From Chloroflexota bacterium (lineage in GTDB: Bacteria; Chloroflexota; UBA5177), in the NCBI GenBank assembly GCA_025966365.1, contig JAICWV010000007.1:1-51098 (forward strand): a stretch of DNA of 51,098 nucleotides, in the 5' to 3' direction. Numbering within the stretch: position 1 is the stretch's first letter; each line of letters opens with the position of its first letter. Of this stretch, positions 37,710 through 45,290 are shown piece after piece. The position numbers and the translations under genes are program-made. The notes beneath the pieces were generated by a model. The model ran no database searches. It had not been told where the DNA came from and saw nothing but the letters and a program-made list of their open reading frames with translations.

Positions 37710-39035
37710 ATGATCGCGCACGAGCTAGAAGCGCTGGCCGAGAGCGGCAAGAAAGTGCTTGCGACAAACGACCTGGGCGGCTGGACCAAGCCTGCTCCGA
37801 GTCTGTACCCGCACCAGTGGAACTGGGATTCGTGCTTTATCGCGATTGGCCTGTCCCGGTACGACTTCGATCGAGCGTGCCGCGAGCTCGAGTCGCTCCT
37901 TCGCGGCCAGTGGGCAAACGGACTGGTTCCGCAGATCATCTTCAATCCGGCGGGCAAGGGTTACTTTCCCGGTCCCGATGTCTGGCAATCGGAGCGCTCG
38001 CCGGACGCACCCCGCGGGATTGAGACCTCCGGTATCACCCAGCCTCCCGTCCTGGCTACCGCGGCCCTGGCGATCTGGAGAAATGCGCCCCAGGGACGCA
38101 AGCAGGATGCCCTCAACTTCCTGAAGAGGATGTATCCGCACCTATTCCGCTACCACCAGTTTTTCTATGACCTGCGCAACCCGGACGGCGACGGACTGAT
38201 CGTGGTCGTGCATCCGTGGGAGTCGGGCACGGACAACTCGCCCCGCTACCTGGAAGCAGGTAATCGGGTCCACCTCGCCTACACGCCGCACTACAACCGC
38301 CTGGACACGCAGCACGTCTCGGCCGCGAACCGGCCGACCGACAAGGACTACGACCTATTCGTATACCTGCTGGAATTGATGCGAGAAGACAACTGGGATC
38401 AGAAGGCCTACCTGAAGCATGCGCCGCTGCAAGTCCAGGACGTCCTCTTCAACTCCGTGCTCTGCCGTGCCAACCTCGATCTCGCCGCCATCGCTGAACA
38501 GGTCGGCGAGGACCCGGCGCAGCCGCGCGCGTGGTACCAGGCCACGAAATCTGCCGTCAATGCCCGATGCTGGGACCAGAGCGACGGCATGTACTTCGAC
38601 TACGACCGGGTAGCGGGTGAGCTCATCAAGATCGACACCGTGTCCGGCCTCAACACCCTCTACGGCGGGGTGGCGACAGAGGAGCGAGCCCGGCGCTTGA
38701 CCGAGATTCACCTGCTCAACCCAAGACTCTTCTGGCCCGCCGCCGGGTACCCCGTACCGACCACCGCTCTCAGCTCCTCGTGGTTTAACCCCGAGAATTA
38801 CTGGCTGGGGCCGGTGTGGGTCGGCATCAATTGGATGCTGGCTCGAGGGCTAACGTCGTACAGCCGACTTGACCTCGCCGCTATCCTCTCCACCCGCACC
38901 CTGGACCTCGTTTCTCGCGGCGGCTTTCGAGAGTACTTCAACCCCTATACGGGCGCCGGATACGGAACCGACAATTTCAGCTGGGCAGCGGCGCTGACGA
39001 TCGACCTCGTGGCCGAGATAGGTGATTCTGTCTAA
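37710..39035 (+). CDS. GH63-family glycosidase, mannosylglycerate/glucosylglycerate-hydrolase-like
   Basis: 441 residues, an (alpha/alpha)6-barrel. The PHQWNWDSCFIAIGL segment (D40), HPWESGTDNSPRY (D175) and GGFREYFNPYTG (E408) correspond in order and spacing to the substrate-binding and catalytic Asp/Glu of bacterial mannosylglycerate and glucosylglycerate hydrolases, which release the sugar from these compatible solutes. Length fits that subgroup, not the larger processing glucosidase. GGGAGG 6 nt before the ATG. Exact substrate unproven. Confidence 0.85.
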   Translation: MIAHELEALAESGKKVLATNDLGGWTKPAPSLYPHQWNWDSCFIAIGLSRYDFDRACRELESLLRGQWANGLVPQIIFNPAGKGYFPGPDVWQSERSPDAPRGIETSGITQPPVLATAALAIWRNAPQGRKQDALNFLKRMYPHLFRYHQFFYDLRNPDGDGLIVVVHPWESGTDNSPRYLEAGNRVHLAYTPHYNRLDTQHVSAANRPTDKDYDLFVYLLELMREDNWDQKAYLKHAPLQVQDVLFNSVLCRANLDLAAIAEQVGEDPAQPRAWYQATKSAVNARCWDQSDGMYFDYDRVAGELIKIDTVSGLNTLYGGVATEERARRLTEIHLLNPRLFWPAAGYPVPTTALSSSWFNPENYWLGPVWVGINWMLARGLTSYSRLDLAAILSTRTLDLVSRGGFREYFNPYTGAGYGTDNFSWAAALTIDLVAEIGDSV

Positions 39036-39038
39036 TTC

Positions 39039-40034
39039 CTAACCGTGGGTCACAATCTTCCAGGCGATGTACGCGACGTATACAAGCGCGATTGCCGCTC
39101 CTCCCCAGCGTCCGATGACCTTGTTCCGCCCGAAGAAACGAATATCGCCCAACAGGAGAAAGGTCACGACCACTCCATAGATGTTGAGGAAGTAGAGGTC
39201 ATGCAAGCCAGGGGTGGGTAGCCGCACTCCGCGGATGAGAGCAGGCAGACCCAGGGCCAGGCAGATGTTGAAGACGTTGCTCCCGAAGACGTTGCCAAGC
39301 ACCAGGTCCACCTCGCCGCGGCGCGCTGCCTGGACCGAGGTGGCGATTTCCGGGATAGACGTTCCGATGCCGATGACGGTAGCGCTGATGATGTACTCGT
39401 CTACGCCGGCACCCCGGGCGATGGCACTCACGGATTGGACTAGCGCCTCTGCCGCGATCACGAGGACGATCACGGCACCCCCGGCCTGGAGTGCGTTCCG
39501 GGAGGCACGGGAGGCGCTGTGGCCTGTCCCGTCGTTTTGCCGCCCGGCCGCACGCTCTCGCGAAGCGTACTGGTACACGAGAACCATGACGAGAACGAAG
39601 CACGCGGTGAGGACGCCGCCTTCCTGTCTGGTGATGACACGGTCCAGGGCGAAGCCCATGAGCATGGTGGTGATAGCGAAGTACAGAAGAATCTCGCGCT
39701 CGATGACGAGCGTCCTGGTCCGGATGGCAGTGATAAAGGCAGCAATGCCAAGCCCGAAGCCGATATTCACCAGGTTAGAGCCCAGTACATTGCCGACAAC
39801 GACCGCGTTGTCACCTCCGGAAAGCGTGACCGCCATATTGACGGCAAGCTCGGCCAGCGACGTGCTCATCGCGACCAACGTGGTCCCGATGATCAGCGGA
39901 CTCACCCCATAAGCATGCGCCGTGTCCACGGCCCGTGAGATGGCAAAGTCCGCAGACACAACCAGGACGGTCAGACTCGCAAGAGTTATGAGAATGTCAA
40001 GGGCTACCGGCAAGCCGTCGAAGAACGACTCCAT
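39039..40034 (-). CDS. Calcium/sodium antiporter family protein (YrbG-like)
   Basis: 331 residues, about ten membrane spans in two inverted halves. The alpha repeats are visible as STSLAELAVNMAV with GNVLGSNLVNIGFGL in the first half and GTSIPEIATSV with GNVFGSNVFNICLAL in the second; the Glu in each is the cation ligand. A polar loop (about 160-185) separates the halves. Exchanges Ca2+ for Na+ or H+. Lies 3 nt after the stop of a 64-aa KOW-like gene, so the two form an operon; stops 3 bp from the convergent GH63 gene. Confidence 0.93.
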   Translation of the reverse strand: MESFFDGLPVALDILITLASLTVLVVSADFAISRAVDTAHAYGVSPLIIGTTLVAMSTSLAELAVNMAVTLSGGDNAVVVGNVLGSNLVNIGFGLGIAAFITAIRTRTLVIEREILLYFAITTMLMGFALDRVITRQEGGVLTACFVLVMVLVYQYASRERAAGRQNDGTGHSASRASRNALQAGGAVIVLVIAAEALVQSVSAIARGAGVDEYIISATVIGIGTSIPEIATSVQAARRGEVDLVLGNVFGSNVFNICLALGLPALIRGVRLPTPGLHDLYFLNIYGVVVTFLLLGDIRFFGRNKVIGRWGGAAIALVYVAYIAWKIVTHG

Positions 40035-40037
40035 CCG

Positions 40038-40232
40038 TTAACCGGGCGGCCGGCTCGGAGGCGCCTCGGGGTGAAGCAGATCCAGAGGGTAGGTGGTCAT
40101 CCAGCCGGTATCCAGCCGCACCACCGCGGCCGGACGTCCGCCGGGCAACGTGGTGATCTCGGTCACGCGCCCGCGAAACTCGCGGCGATCTGGTGTGTGC
40201 ACGACAACTCGTTCCCCGACCTGAGGTGTCAC
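40038..40232 (-). CDS. Small SH3/KOW-like beta-barrel protein
   Basis: 64 residues, predicted mostly beta: VGERVVVHTPDRREFRGRVT is typical of a small barrel that binds nucleic acid or a peptide, and the C-terminal part is Pro-rich. GTG start with a GGGGAGGAAGGGG run just upstream. Leads the antiporter operon. Function unknown. Confidence 0.72.
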   Translation of the reverse strand: MTPQVGERVVVHTPDRREFRGRVTEITTLPGGRPAAVVRLDTGWMTTYPLDLLHPEAPPSRPPG

Positions 40233-40253
40233 CGCCCCTTCCTCCCCGCCATC

Positions 40254-40263
40254 CTAATACACT
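40254..40263. promoter_or_regulatory. Overlapping bidirectional -10 element
   Basis: CTAATACACT contains TATTAG on the minus strand (40254-40259) and TACACT on the plus strand (40258-40263). It serves the KOW/antiporter operon on one side and the CDF gene on the other, each about 20 nt away. Confidence 0.45.
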
Positions 40264-40283
40264 GGGTAGGAGCATTCGACACC

Positions 40284-41219
40284 ATGGTCAGCCACCAGCA
40301 CGGGCACCATCATCCTCTTGCCGGTCGAGCACTGGGAACTGCCTTTGTCCTCACCGGTGTAATCCTGCTGGTCGAGGCAATCGCGGGCTATATTTCGGGT
40401 TCGCTGGCACTTCTGTCCGACGCCGGGCATATTCTGACCGACATGGCGGCACTGGGCCTGGCCTGGTTCGTCACCCACCTGTCGCAGCGGCCGGCGACAG
40501 AGCAACACACCTTCGGATACCAGCGAAGCCGGATCCTGGCAGCGCTGGCCAATGCGACCGTCCTTCTCCTGGTGGCAGCAGCCGTCGCCGTTGAGGCGGT
40601 GGCCAGGCTCGGCCACCCACACCCGGTCCAGGGTGGTCTGGTGATTCTGGCAGCGCTGCTCGCGATCGGCGTTAACAGTTACGTCGCCTTCGCCCTGCAC
40701 GGCCACGAAGAAGGGGATCTCAATGTCCGGTCCGCCCTCTTGCATGTCGTCAGTGACATCGGAGCGTCGGCGGGGGTCGTGGTAGCGGGCGTCTTCGCCC
40801 TCACCCTGCACCTCTATATCGTCGATCCAATCGTATCCCTGCTGATCGCGGCGCTCATTGCCTATGGCGCCTGGCAGATCATCCGGGACACGGTGGTCAT
40901 CTTGATGGAGGGAGCCCCCCGCGGCCTCGACCTGGCCTCCGTGCGGCAGGCGATGCTGGAGGTGCCAGGGGTGGAAGACGTGCACGATCTACACGTCTGG
41001 GCGCTCTCAGACGGCTACCGACTCCTGTCAGCCCACGTTACCGTCCCCGACCAGGCCCTCGCCGATACGTCGACGCTTCTTGCTGACCTCAAGTTCCTCC
41101 TCCATCAGCGATTTCACATCGAGCACGCCACCATCGAGCCGGAGTGCCTGGACTGCCGCGTGCCGCCCAGGCGAATTATCCACCTCGACGCACCCAGACG
41201 CACCCAGAAGACCCTCTGA
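40284..41219 (+). CDS. CDF-family zinc/cobalt/cadmium efflux transporter
   Basis: 311 residues, six spans plus a cytoplasmic domain. His-rich start (SHQHGHHHPL), then metal site A in SDAGHILTDMAAL (span 2) and HVVSDIGASAG (span 5), the HxxxD pairs of zinc-type CDF proteins. The C-terminal ferredoxin-like dimer domain (about 210-300) has VEDVHDLHVWALSDGY. Exports Zn2+ (possibly Cd2+ or Co2+) for protons. The ATG follows GTAGGAG; a longer frame to 40071 overlaps the divergent gene and is not used. Confidence 0.93.
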   Translation: MVSHQHGHHHPLAGRALGTAFVLTGVILLVEAIAGYISGSLALLSDAGHILTDMAALGLAWFVTHLSQRPATEQHTFGYQRSRILAALANATVLLLVAAAVAVEAVARLGHPHPVQGGLVILAALLAIGVNSYVAFALHGHEEGDLNVRSALLHVVSDIGASAGVVVAGVFALTLHLYIVDPIVSLLIAALIAYGAWQIIRDTVVILMEGAPRGLDLASVRQAMLEVPGVEDVHDLHVWALSDGYRLLSAHVTVPDQALADTSTLLADLKFLLHQRFHIEHATIEPECLDCRVPPRRIIHLDAPRRTQKTL

Positions 41220-41223
41220 GAGG

Positions 41224-42462
41224 CTACCGGTCCTCCCCTAGCACCAGAGCCGCATTAACGCCCCCAAAGCCGAATGAGGTTGTGAGCGCTCGGCCCACCG
41301 AGCCCCGCCGGCCGTCGTGTCCGACCGCGTTCACACAGCATCCCGGGTCCTGGCTCGTGAGATTGGCCGTCCCGGGAATATGCCCATGGAGAATGGCGGC
41401 GGCCGTAATCGCGGCCTCGATGGCACCTGACGCTCCCAGGGGGTGACCGTAAAGCGCTTTGGTGCTGCTCACCGGGACCGTGGCGCCGCGGTCGCCCAGG
41501 GCCAGGCGGATTGCAGCACACTCTGCCTCATCCCCGAGCGGGGTCCCGGTCGCATGGGCATTGACGTAATCCACATCGTCGGAGCAGACCCTCGCGTCCG
41601 CCATGGCGCCGCAAATAGCCCGAGCGGCCTCCTCGCCACCCGGGCGGGGTGCGGTCATGTGATAGGCATCGTTTGACTGGCCGTAGCCCAGAACCTCGGC
41701 GTAGATGCGGGCGCCACGTGTGATGGCGGCGTCACGCTCCTCCAGGACAAGGACCGCGGCACCCTCTCCCATGACAAACCCGTCCCGGCAGGAATCGAAC
41801 GGGCGGCAAGCAGAAGCTGGGTCGTCATTCCGGGCGGACATTGCCTTGATGCGCGAAAAGGCGCCGAAGGTGAGCGGAGCTAGCGGCGCCTCGACTCCTC
41901 CAGCCAGCATGACGTCGGCCTCACCCGAGCGGACCGCTCTCAGGGCGTCGCCCACCGCAATAGAGCCCGACGCGCAGGAGGAGGAATTCGACAGGTGCGG
42001 ACCACGAAAGTCATGATCGATGGCGATGTTCGCCCCGCTGGCTCCCCCGTAGACGGCAACCGCGAGCGCCGATCCGATGGCTCCTATGCCCTCACGCAGG
42101 TAGAGCGAGTGCTGCTCCTCTGCGTAAGCCAGGCCGCCGAGCGCGGAACCGATGGCGACCCCGCAGCGCGTCGGATCCAGCCGGCGTCCACACAGACCGG
42201 CGTCCTGCATGGCCAGAGAAGCGGTCGCGATACCGAACTGGGCAAACCTATCCAGCCGGCGCGCACGCCGCGAGTCCATGAAATCCAGTGGATCAAAGTC
42301 GTCGACTTCTGCCGCAACCTGCGAGCGAAACTCGGACGGGTCGAAACGCGTGATTCTCCGCGTCGCGGGCGCGCCGCGCCTGACCCCCTCCCACAGGCGA
42401 TGGACGCCCGTCCCCAGTGCTGTCACAGCGCCGATCCCGGTAATGACGACGCGCCGCCTCAC
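41224..42462 (-). CDS. FabF-type beta-ketoacyl synthase
   Basis: 412 residues. With GTG 42462 as start, catalytic Cys163 (SSSCASGS), His303 (NAHATGT), Lys335 and His340 (STKALYGHPLGASG) match E. coli FabF numbering exactly, and the gating FGFGG motif is near the end. It therefore should condense malonyl-ACP with an acyl primer. No ACP, FabD, FabG or chain-length-factor gene is near. It is the last gene of a five-gene operon with a cyclase-like START protein, flavoenzyme and methyltransferase, suggesting a specialised lipid or polyketide product rather than housekeeping fatty acid synthesis. Start overlaps the START gene stop by 4 nt. Confidence 0.92.
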   Translation of the reverse strand: MRRRVVITGIGAVTALGTGVHRLWEGVRRGAPATRRITRFDPSEFRSQVAAEVDDFDPLDFMDSRRARRLDRFAQFGIATASLAMQDAGLCGRRLDPTRCGVAIGSALGGLAYAEEQHSLYLREGIGAIGSALAVAVYGGASGANIAIDHDFRGPHLSNSSSCASGSIAVGDALRAVRSGEADVMLAGGVEAPLAPLTFGAFSRIKAMSARNDDPASACRPFDSCRDGFVMGEGAAVLVLEERDAAITRGARIYAEVLGYGQSNDAYHMTAPRPGGEEAARAICGAMADARVCSDDVDYVNAHATGTPLGDEAECAAIRLALGDRGATVPVSSTKALYGHPLGASGAIEAAITAAAILHGHIPGTANLTSQDPGCCVNAVGHDGRRGSVGRALTTSFGFGGVNAALVLGEDR

Positions 42463-42923
42463 GGACGGCTCCCGTCTGCTTCTGCCCGCGCCGCGATCCC
42501 GGCAAGCGTCCTGTCGGCGATCGCCATCACGAACACGGTTCCAACCACCCAGCGTGACACTCCGGACTGCAACCACCACCTGTCCGGTTGCAGTCGATGG
42601 GTGATGATCGCGCGCGAGCCGCCGACGGCCCCCTCAATCTGCCACAGGACGTCCATTCCACGGGTAACGCCCGCGACATGCCGGTAGTAAATCTCAAGCC
42701 GATCCGGGCGAATTTCCTGGATCGCGATCCAGCGGACCGGGAAGCCGCCGCGCTGCGCGCCCATCGCCACCGTTCGGCTGGTGTCGCCGCCATCCAGGAC
42801 CCGCACATATCGATAGTGGGAAAGCAGTTCCGGCCAGGCAGTGACGTCCGCCGCCAGGGCGAAGACACGCTCGGGCTCGGCAGCCACGGACTGCGAGTTG
42901 ACTGTGTAAATCTCAGGTATCAC
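42459..42923 (-). CDS. START/SRPBCC-domain protein (polyketide cyclase/dehydrase-like)
   Basis: 154 residues, one helix-grip domain. Typical features are the N-terminal strand and helix AAEPERVFALAADVTAWPEL, the RWIAIQEIRPDRLEIYYRH strands (excerpt: QEIRPDRLEIYYRH) and the long C-terminal helix. Such domains bind hydrophobic ligands; some are aromatase/cyclases of type II polyketide synthesis or CoQ-like chaperones. GTG start overlaps the flavoenzyme stop (GTGA) and its own stop overlaps the ketosynthase start, so stoichiometric production with both is likely. Confidence 0.85.
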   Translation of the reverse strand: MIPEIYTVNSQSVAAEPERVFALAADVTAWPELLSHYRYVRVLDGGDTSRTVAMGAQRGGFPVRWIAIQEIRPDRLEIYYRHVAGVTRGMDVLWQIEGAVGGSRAIITHRLQPDRWWLQSGVSRWVVGTVFVMAIADRTLAGIAARAEADGSRP

Positions 42924-44119
42924 GGCCGCAAGGCCTCCCAGAGCGGTCGGGGCCGCAGAAACGTGGAAGGATCGGCAAGGTCGCCAAGCACGGAGGCGAG
43001 CAGGCTGCCCGCGTCCGGTCTGGCCTCAAGACGGGGAACGGCGTAGTCAAGCAAGTGAGGAAAACGGACAAACGTCTGGACAAGCTTCGTCACTATCTCT
43101 TTGTTCGCAAAGGCGTTACGCCGGGCGTGCCGGTAGTGCCTGACGTCATCCGAGCGATAGCCGTGAGCCAGCATGGTGAGAGCCGAGCTGGCGGCGATTT
43201 CGCCGCCCACCAGAGCTCGGTAGATGCCTTCCCCGGTAAAAGGGTCAAAGAACCCGGCGGCATCCCCGGTGAGCAGATATCCCGGACCGGCCTCCCGGCG
43301 AGATCGCGCGCCCACCGGGAACATGCCCCGGACCTGAGATACGCGCTCGTACCCTTGCAGGGCTGAAGCAAGATACTTGTGGCTCTCGATCCACCCGTCG
43401 AGAGTCCGGGCAGGGGTACTTCGACCGCCTTGGCTTGTCGGCCCGTGAATGACCAGCCCAACATTCACCCCGCCGCCTGGGAGCGGGGCGATTCCGCAGT
43501 ACCCGCCGGACGCGACGTGCATCTGCCCCGATCCACCGGGCAGGTGACCGGTCCCGGCGAAGTGAGCGACAAGGCCCATCCGATGCGGCCAGCGCACCGG
43601 TCGGGACAACCCAAGTCCGCGGCGCATAACGGACTGCGCACCGTCCGCGATCACCACGACCTGGGCCCGCAGCCCAAGAGGGCGCCCGCCGGTCGACGCC
43701 TTCACACCCCGCACCACCCCATCGGATACCACAGGTTCGCGCACGATGACGCCCTCTTCCAGCCGAGCTCCTTCGCGGACCGCCTCACGGGCGAGTGCAT
43801 GATCGAGCTCGAATCGGGGCAGGGTCATGGCGTGAGCCGCCTCGCCATCGCGCCGGTAGCGCAGCCGGAACCGGGCCCCGGAGAAGGACACGATGTCCAT
43901 TCCCGGCACGGACAGCGGCGCTTCGTCCACAACCGCCTGCGCCAGACCGGTGCGCGCGAGCACGTCCATCACCCCCGGGCTCATGTACTCCGCGCACGCC
44001 TTGTGACGTGGAAAGCGCGCACGATCGAGAAGCAGGACGCGCGCTCCGGCGCGTGCAGCCAGGGCCGCGGTCGAGGCGCCGGAAGGCCCGGCACCGACCA
44101 CAATGATGTCAGCGTCCAT
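42920..44119 (-). CDS. Geranylgeranyl-reductase-family FAD-dependent oxidoreductase
   Basis: 399 residues. The FAD motif IIVVGAGPSGASTAALAARAG (excerpt: VVGAGPSGASTA) is near the start, the HKACAEYMSPGVMDVLARTG segment is characteristic of the geranylgeranyl reductase/tryptophan-halogenase-like group, and LLTGDAAGFFDPFTGEGI is the second FAD motif. Substrate could be a prenyl or polyketide chain double bond, or a hydroxylation. ATG 44119 overlaps the methyltransferase stop by 11 nt; the longer frame to 44254 is rejected. Second to last positions of the lipid/polyketide-like operon are occupied by its neighbours. Confidence 0.9.
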   Translation of the reverse strand: MDADIIVVGAGPSGASTAALAARAGARVLLLDRARFPRHKACAEYMSPGVMDVLARTGLAQAVVDEAPLSVPGMDIVSFSGARFRLRYRRDGEAAHAMTLPRFELDHALAREAVREGARLEEGVIVREPVVSDGVVRGVKASTGGRPLGLRAQVVVIADGAQSVMRRGLGLSRPVRWPHRMGLVAHFAGTGHLPGGSGQMHVASGGYCGIAPLPGGGVNVGLVIHGPTSQGGRSTPARTLDGWIESHKYLASALQGYERVSQVRGMFPVGARSRREAGPGYLLTGDAAGFFDPFTGEGIYRALVGGEIAASSALTMLAHGYRSDDVRHYRHARRNAFANKEIVTKLVQTFVRFPHLLDYAVPRLEARPDAGSLLASVLGDLADPSTFLRPRPLWEALRP

Positions 44120-44840
44120 GGCCGTGCTTGCGGGCGACCAGCGTGAGCCGGCCCGGTCCGTGAGCGGTAACGATCGACTCCGGAATCCCGGCCTGCGCCG
44201 CGAGCTCCCGGACTTCGGCCGGCGTGTAGGCTCGCCGGACGGAGAGCGGCCCATCGTGGCGGGTCAATCGATTGCGGGCGATGGTTCGGGTCAGAAGCCA
44301 GACACCCGCAAGCCCCAGAGGGCCGCGGCGCAAGTCGACGACGACGACTCCCCGACACGCGACCCGCCACATCTCTCCGAGGACGGCCGCCGCATCGGGG
44401 GGATCGAAATGATGCAGCGCGAGGCACAGAGAGGCCACGTCGAAGCAGTTGTCTTGGAAGGGAAGCTTCCGGGCGTCTGCCAGGACCAGGTCCACCGACC
44501 CGCCGGTGACCTGGCCGGCCTCGTGCAGAATGTCGCCACTTGAATCGAGTCCCACCGCAGTCAGCTTTATTCCTCGGCGCGCCGCTGCCCGTATCGCAGC
44601 CACCGGAACATCCGCAGATCCGGTGGCAACGTCAAGCAGCGAGCCCTCTGGTGGCTCCAGTAGCTGCACGATGGTGCGAACCGCCAGTGCGGTGCCGCCG
44701 GTCCAGGTGTTCAACCTGCGGATGTCGCGCAGATTGTCCGGCAGGTCGTTCCGGACCGATTCCGGCCGATCGAGCAGCTCCTGACGGCGGTCACGCGAAG
44801 AGGTGGGGAGGATAAGATTCTCCGGTCTATACCTGGGCAC
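44109..44840 (-). CDS. SAM-dependent methyltransferase, class I
   Basis: About 243 residues. SAM motif I LLDVATGSADVPVAAI, acidic loop GLDSSGDILHEAG, motif DLVLADARKLPFQDNCFDVA, and the post motif SLCLALHHFDPPDAAAVLGEM (excerpt: ALHHFDPPDAAAVL), similar to UbiE/type-11 enzymes. The N-terminal LPDNLRDIRRLNTWTGG segment is a recurring family element, so the protein starts well before it. GTG 44840, overlapping the lipoprotein stop by 14 nt, is the best start found; ATG 44882 is an alternative. Probably methylates a hydroxyl or carbon of the operon's product. Confidence 0.87.
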   Translation of the reverse strand: MPRYRPENLILPTSSRDRRQELLDRPESVRNDLPDNLRDIRRLNTWTGGTALAVRTIVQLLEPPEGSLLDVATGSADVPVAAIRAAARRGIKLTAVGLDSSGDILHEAGQVTGGSVDLVLADARKLPFQDNCFDVASLCLALHHFDPPDAAAVLGEMWRVACRGVVVVDLRRGPLGLAGVWLLTRTIARNRLTRHDGPLSVRRAYTPAEVRELAAQAGIPESIVTAHGPGRLTLVARKHGHGR

Positions 44841-45276
44841 CGGGATGTCGCAGCTCTTGCGGCATGTGCTCCAGGCTATCATCGGAGTTCACAAACAGGT
44901 CCGCCTCCGGTCCCAGATTCAGGCTTTCGTCCCAGGAGAGGTGGTGATCCCGCCGCCAACTTGCATATGCGTATTCAATAGCATTGCAAAGATTGTCCAG
45001 CCCCTCGCTGGCCAGAAAGAGATTCACCGACGGACTGATGGTGTCACGTTTGTCGATCTTGTCAACCGTCCCGCACGCCTTCTGCTCCCGATGGAACCCG
45101 GCCGTCATTGCCGGCAAGTCATTGGCCAGATAGGCGGTCTTGAACGACCGATAGGTGGGAGCAAGGACGGCATAGGTCGTGCGTACTTGCTGGAGATCCT
45201 GCCGCGTGAAGGGATTCGACCCGCCACAGGCGGTCAGGAAGACCCCGAGCGCCAGCAGGGTGGGGATGCGAGGCAT
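44827..45276 (-). CDS. Hypothetical lipoprotein
   Basis: 149 residues. MPRIPTLLALGVFLTACGGS is a lipoprotein signal with Cys17. The mature part is helical, with FTRQDLQQVRTTYAVLAPTY and a Cys pair (KACGT ... LDNLCNA) that could form a disulphide. The ATG at 45276 follows TAAAAT by 8 nt without a ribosome site: a leaderless-type start, so the operon promoter is here. First gene of the methyltransferase-flavoenzyme-START-ketosynthase run. No family recognised. Confidence 0.75.
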   Translation of the reverse strand: MPRIPTLLALGVFLTACGGSNPFTRQDLQQVRTTYAVLAPTYRSFKTAYLANDLPAMTAGFHREQKACGTVDKIDKRDTISPSVNLFLASEGLDNLCNAIEYAYASWRRDHHLSWDESLNLGPEADLFVNSDDSLEHMPQELRHPGAQV

Positions 45277-45284
45277 GGCCAGCA

Positions 45285-45290
45285 ATTTTA
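45285..45290 (-). promoter_or_regulatory. Leaderless-type -10 box of the ketosynthase operon
   Basis: Minus-strand TAAAAT ending 8 nt before the lipoprotein ATG at 45276. Confidence 0.5.

Follow-up and report, generated by a model that had tools for sequence, protein, structure and literature searches.

A FabF-like ketosynthase and a START cyclase in a candidate operon for aromatic alkyl lipids of Chloroflexota and other bacteria

A short operon of a Chloroflexota bacterium (lineage UBA5177; assembly GCA_025966365.1, contig JAICWV010000007.1) appears to encode a self-contained pathway in which a FabF-like ketosynthase (KS) and a START-fold cyclase (SRP) would take the place of a type III polyketide synthase (PKS); the product would be an aromatic alkyl lipid of the alkylresorcinol or alkylquinone kind, methylated and oxidised by a flavoenzyme. 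The probability of this reading is put at roughly 0.55; both the product and the chemistry of the cassette are what we infer. The operon lies in the window, i.e., the whole stretch of 51,098 nt analysed here, and its core comprises the genes of KS, SRP, an S-adenosylmethionine (SAM)-dependent methyltransferase (MT), and an FAD enzyme of the geranylgeranyl-reductase superfamily (GGR). Overall, the cassette is one that would work like a hid-type alkylresorcinol operon, yet the synthase defining such operons is not what it carries.

Operon layout and genome context

Five genes run on the minus strand from position 45276 to position 41224, with consecutive overlaps of 14, 11, 4, and 4 nt; the coordinate check and the family scans bear out both the overlaps and the gene labels given in an earlier note on this DNA. 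The leading gene (44827..45276, minus strand) codes for a small lipoprotein with the lipobox LTAC, which matched no family in the family scans and has homologues at the same position in three relatives. It is followed by MT (44109..44840, minus strand), whose GTG start at 44840 gives the 14-nt overlap, an upstream ATG at 44882 being a possible alternative, and by GGR (42920..44119, minus strand), which starts with ATG at 44119 and overlaps MT by 11 nt. The single-domain START/SRPBCC cyclase SRP (42459..42923, minus strand) and KS (41224..42462, minus strand) both start with GTG, at 42923 and 42462, respectively, each 4 nt inside the gene before it. The lipoprotein, placed in the operon by the earlier note, does belong there in the window's family, where alone it is kept; the survey of cassette loci found it absent from the cassettes elsewhere, and it was rejected as a general member of the pathway.

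A −10-like hexamer, TAAAAT (45285..45290, minus strand), lies 8 nt 5' of the lipoprotein ATG, and the same motif recurs at the same spacing in three relatives (L036, L037, and L038), the four hexamers reading TAAAAT, TAGAAT, TACAAT, and TAAAAT; within the window, TANAAT has nine occurrences, both strands counted. Since the spacing to the first ATG is exactly 8 nt at all four loci, a leaderless start of the operon mRNA, with the hexamer as its promoter, is likely. The single leaderless promoter had been proposed earlier as an unsupported guess, and it is this constant spacing that now speaks for it.

Beside the operon, at 37710-41219 of the window, there are a glycosidase-like gene, a Na/Ca exchanger, and a cation-efflux gene, with equivalents in the same-family relatives L036 and L037. 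Some members of the window's family also keep YvcK, ProS, and cation transporters around the cassette, so there it is inherited in place.

The genome of the window (3.59 Mb, 97% complete) contains two full ketosynthases, the cassette KS and a FabF adjoining a biotin-carboxyl-carrier gene; they reside on different contigs, and no pair of KS and chain-length factor exists. Neither the operon nor the whole genome possesses a type III PKS, and the cassette includes no dedicated acyl carrier protein (ACP), the sole recognisable ACP of the genome being encoded on another contig, C63. These genome-wide counts agree with the earlier remark that ACP, chain-length factor, and type III PKS are missing nearby. 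A ketoreductase was sought by eye only, on the list of open reading frames.

Spread of the cassette and its ketosynthase–cyclase pair

In a survey with tblastn and HMM searches, MT-GGR-SRP-KS kept one gene order throughout the window's family (all five members); it recurred in that arrangement elsewhere in the same taxonomic order and class and in remoter Chloroflexota, and likewise in one Vulcanimicrobiota bin (a single locus) and in Paenibacillus humicus. In Gemmatimonadota, the order is mostly GGR, flavin reductase, and then MT-SRP-KS. The flanks of the cassette vary between the loci, hence MT, GGR, SRP, and KS form the conserved unit, and a chance grouping of these genes is ruled out by its conservation across phyla.

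SRP was detected in 29 of the 301 Chloroflexota genomes: KS adjoins it at 23 of the 29 loci, one locus runs into a contig end, and the remaining five have the cassette KS elsewhere or lack it, which counts against a strict pairing of the two enzymes. Among 150 sampled Gemmatimonadota genomes, 84 encode SRP, with KS next to it at 25 of the 26 loci read, and one Paenibacillus genus has SRP in seven of eight genomes (KS-SRP-GGR at 6/6 loci read). The scattering of homologous genes in relatives, named beforehand as an outcome that would speak against the operon, is not what these loci display. Several variants were observed as well. Some Chloroflexota (L202, L206, L207, L215) have a lone START cyclase, e.g., near ilvD-like and tRNA-synthetase-like genes, and an Acidobacteria locus (L126:5850-9179) comprises KS-MT-GGR without a cyclase, its KS falling outside the cassette clade. 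Tandem ketosynthase genes, possibly pairs of KS and chain-length factor, are found in G025 (contig C4, 125650-127684) and G065 (contig C17, 29789-31736), genomes which also harbor the cassette or a related KS-MT-GGR operon.

The family scan assigned the N- and C-terminal ketoacyl-synt domains to KS. The catalytically intact FabF-type ketosynthase of the earlier note stands as a predicted activity: Cys163, His303, His340, and Lys335 are invariant in all 31 cassette KSs, preserving the Cys-His-His set of the active site. In the tree, these 31 proteins fall into a single clade (SH-aLRT 100), with the FabFs encoded by those genomes placed outside it, so the clustering with the housekeeping FabF, which the earlier note had weighed, was not recovered. 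KS scores above the cut-off of the FabF-like subfamily model PRK07314 and below that of the FabF equivalog TIGR03150 (476 vs. 494), and it is nearer to FabF than to the actinorhodin KS; a housekeeping FabF duplicate was rejected on the separate clade and the NCBIfam cut-off. Eleven positions distinguish the cassette KSs from the FabFs, including I108L, V/I134A, and A162S, the last one beside the nucleophile. Going by what is known of FabF, these sites lie in or near the acyl pocket; the numbering happens to match that of E. coli FabF.

SRP belongs to Polyketide_cyc according to the family scan. Its best solved-structure matches by sequence profile are aromatase/cyclases (BexL, 1.6e-15; WhiE, 9e-12), and its predicted helix-grip fold (pLDDT 94) is closest to the aromatase/cyclases ZhuI, WhiE, and TcmN, the top match being ZhuI with a TM-score of 0.84. 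The classical active-site arginine, R69 of TcmN, is replaced by Gln in the window SRP and in most aligned rows, and the position is not conserved across a further SRP alignment; due to this, the cyclisation chemistry of SRP may differ from that of the classical aromatase/cyclases.

With the actinobacterial type II aromatic PKSs, the cassette shares a thiolase-fold KS with Cys-His-His and the START aromatase/cyclase fold. It differs from them in having a KS nearer to FabF and no TcmN arginine, and by ordinary usage it is no type II PKS, because both a chain-length factor and an ACP of its own are missing. Another parallel is the synthesis of dialkylresorcinols by DarA/DarB, where a stand-alone ketosynthase yields resorcinols without a type III PKS; DarB and DarA are annotated as a 3-oxoacyl-ACP synthase (DAR-cyclase) and a condensing protein/aromatase, respectively (PMC3949708, PMC3992019). 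This likeness is one of published description rather than of sequence, and the tailoring genes of that system differ from those of the cassette. No description of a KS-plus-cyclase cassette was found in the open literature searched, subscription papers not being excluded.

Tailoring enzymes and their kinship with type III polyketide synthase operons

GGR matches TIGR02032, just over the cut-off, so the geranylgeranyl-reductase-type label of the earlier note holds at the level of the superfamily. It does not hold further: the reductase motif YxWxFP is missing (YCGIAPLP aligns to YIWVFP of the geranylgeranyl-reductase-like structure 3oz2), and the fold is nearer to FADH2-dependent halogenases and monooxygenases, which disfavours a true geranylgeranyl reductase. 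In the structure model (pLDDT 95), the closest folds are those of the halogenases FasV, Bmp2, and PltA, with 3oz2 at rank 25, and the top fold and sequence matches together comprise FasV, Bmp2, PltA, and CmlS. GGR thus resembles these FADH2-dependent halogenases and phenol monooxygenases in fold and overall sequence, but unlike FasV, PltA, and CmlS it does not have the halogenase motif WxWxIP (YCGIAP aligns to WLWYIP of FasV), and a halogenase assignment was set aside. Judging from motifs and the modelled fold, GGR is probably a two-component (FADH2) phenol oxygenase. An enzyme of this type would need a flavin reductase, and the neighbour of GGR in Gemmatimonadota fits: a PF01613 flavin reductase gene lies between GGR and MT there, confirmed with Pfam in two cases and by eye in the others. 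Flavin-reductase-like genes occupy the GGR–MT gap in most Gemmatimonadota cassettes (L060, L063, L064, L065, L068, L312-L328).

MT is a Methyltransf_25/11 protein with PRK06202 as the closest NCBIfam model, below its cut-off, and the same model comes top for the MTs of type III PKS operons. By sequence, the cassette MT and GGR belong to the same families as those in type III PKS operons of Bacteroidota, Methylomirabilota, and other Chloroflexota. Thus, where the cassette MT profile hits in Bacteroidota, a type III PKS adjoins MT at 23 of the 25 loci read, and in Methylomirabilota at all 25, usually along with GGR; in other Chloroflexota families, a type III PKS is found beside the same GGR or MT families. 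This is the key parallel which the earlier note missed.

Operons of this kind have been described. In cyanobacteria, hidABC makes hierridin, an O-methylated alkylresorcinol (PMC8086630). In planctomycetes, the same layout surrounds 58 of 96 type III PKS genes; alkylresorcinols were the products of these synthases, and when the methyltransferase and the oxidoreductase were co-expressed, a methylated product, probably C-methylated, was obtained (PMC10896814). The cassette resembles these systems in being one short operon, their published order being methyltransferase, FAD oxidoreductase, and synthase; the resemblance is by layout and published description, not by protein sequence. The difference is that the FabF-like ketosynthase and the START cyclase replace the type III PKS.

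In the MT tree, the cassette rows group with the type III PKS rows of Methylomirabilota, those of Bacteroidota standing apart (support 98). In the GGR tree, the KS-plus-SRP label takes five changes, of which at least three are forced by supported branches. Because the two operon types interleave in the MT and GGR trees, which carry no inferred root, the synthases seem to have been swapped, in one direction or the other, with the tailoring enzymes staying the same. Within Chloroflexota, a type III PKS was recorded in 59 of the 301 genomes (45 over the cut-off), in no family shared with the SRP genomes, and not one of the 301 (0 of the 29 with SRP) has both. Ignoring relatedness, the exclusion has P = 0.001 with the 59 genomes and P = 0.007 with the 45; this alternation of the synthases is confounded by relatedness. 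Some Chloroflexota MT–GGR pairs have no adjacent synthase (L044:6078-8101, L046:4391-5811), and one of the genomes concerned, G043, has its type III PKS on a different contig.

Proposed route, competing readings, and implications

In the route that we favour, KS, having no chain-length factor, would accept a long-chain fatty acyl group delivered by the housekeeping ACP and extend it by two or three malonyl units, with no reduction. SRP, as its fold suggests, would bind the reactive poly-keto chain and fold it into a ring, so KS and the cyclase together would do the job performed by a single type III PKS in the related operons. By analogy with hidABC and the planctomycetal operons, the FADH2-using GGR would then oxidise the ring and MT would methylate it. 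A point against this route is that a housekeeping ACP would expose the β-keto chains to the fatty-acid ketoreductase, the cassette having no dedicated carrier. The earlier note pointed to a membrane lipid or a small specialised metabolite that might be undescribed; this is supported and can be narrowed.

Stand-alone ketosynthases can also form non-benzenoid rings, as pyrone synthases do. Along with the loss of the catalytic arginine of the aromatising cyclases in SRP, this leaves some room, though not much, for KS and SRP making an α-pyrone or an acyl-diketide/tetronate-type lipid instead of a benzene ring, with MT acting as an O-methyltransferase and GGR as an oxidase; still, SRP matches aromatising cyclases best, both in fold and in sequence, and its tailoring enzymes are those of operons with published resorcinol products (PMC8086630, PMC10896814). 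It is rather improbable that no aromatic ring is made at all, KS supplying a membrane lipid with a modified fatty acyl chain, SRP serving as a lipid carrier, and GGR acting as a true double-bond reductase. The affinity of KS to FabF, the superfamily score of GGR, and the lipoprotein leading the operon in the window's family fit such a scheme, but the motif and the fold of GGR, its flavin reductase partner in Gemmatimonadota, which fits an oxygenase, and the MT and GGR families in common with the type III PKS operons do not.

The nature of the flavoenzyme gives rise to a further reading, a very unlikely one, in which GGR is a halogenase and the product a halogenated alkylphenol: the top matches of GGR and the chlorination of hierridin C by an unknown mechanism (PMC8086630) speak for it, and the sequence YCGIAP in place of WxWxIP speaks against it. 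Finally, the match of KS to PRK07314 would suit a spare fatty-acid cluster, where KS is a second FabF for routine elongation and its neighbours are incidental. This is scarcely tenable given that KS falls short of the FabF equivalog cut-off, clusters apart from the intact housekeeping FabF present alongside it, and keeps the same three gene partners in different phyla.

The aromatic-lipid route, if real, would represent a minimal self-contained aromatic-lipid synthase in phyla from which few members have been cultured and few metabolites are known, as well as a clear case of a type III PKS exchanged for an unlike, two-protein synthase behind the same tailoring enzymes. There is a cultured carrier, Paenibacillus humicus NBRC 102415 (L130), making the hypothesis directly testable. 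Genome-mining rules keyed to type III PKSs or to pairs of KS and chain-length factor may miss the cassette. In its broadest form, the proposal stands at about even odds: a FabF-type KS without a chain-length factor, one START cyclase, and the housekeeping ACP would make aromatic alkyl lipids, this synthase having been swapped several times with type III PKS behind the same pair of MT and oxygenase, and would constitute a principal phenolic-lipid route of Gemmatimonadota and of part of Chloroflexota. Spread over three or more bacterial phyla, the cassette suggests a hitherto undescribed way of making aromatic lipids.
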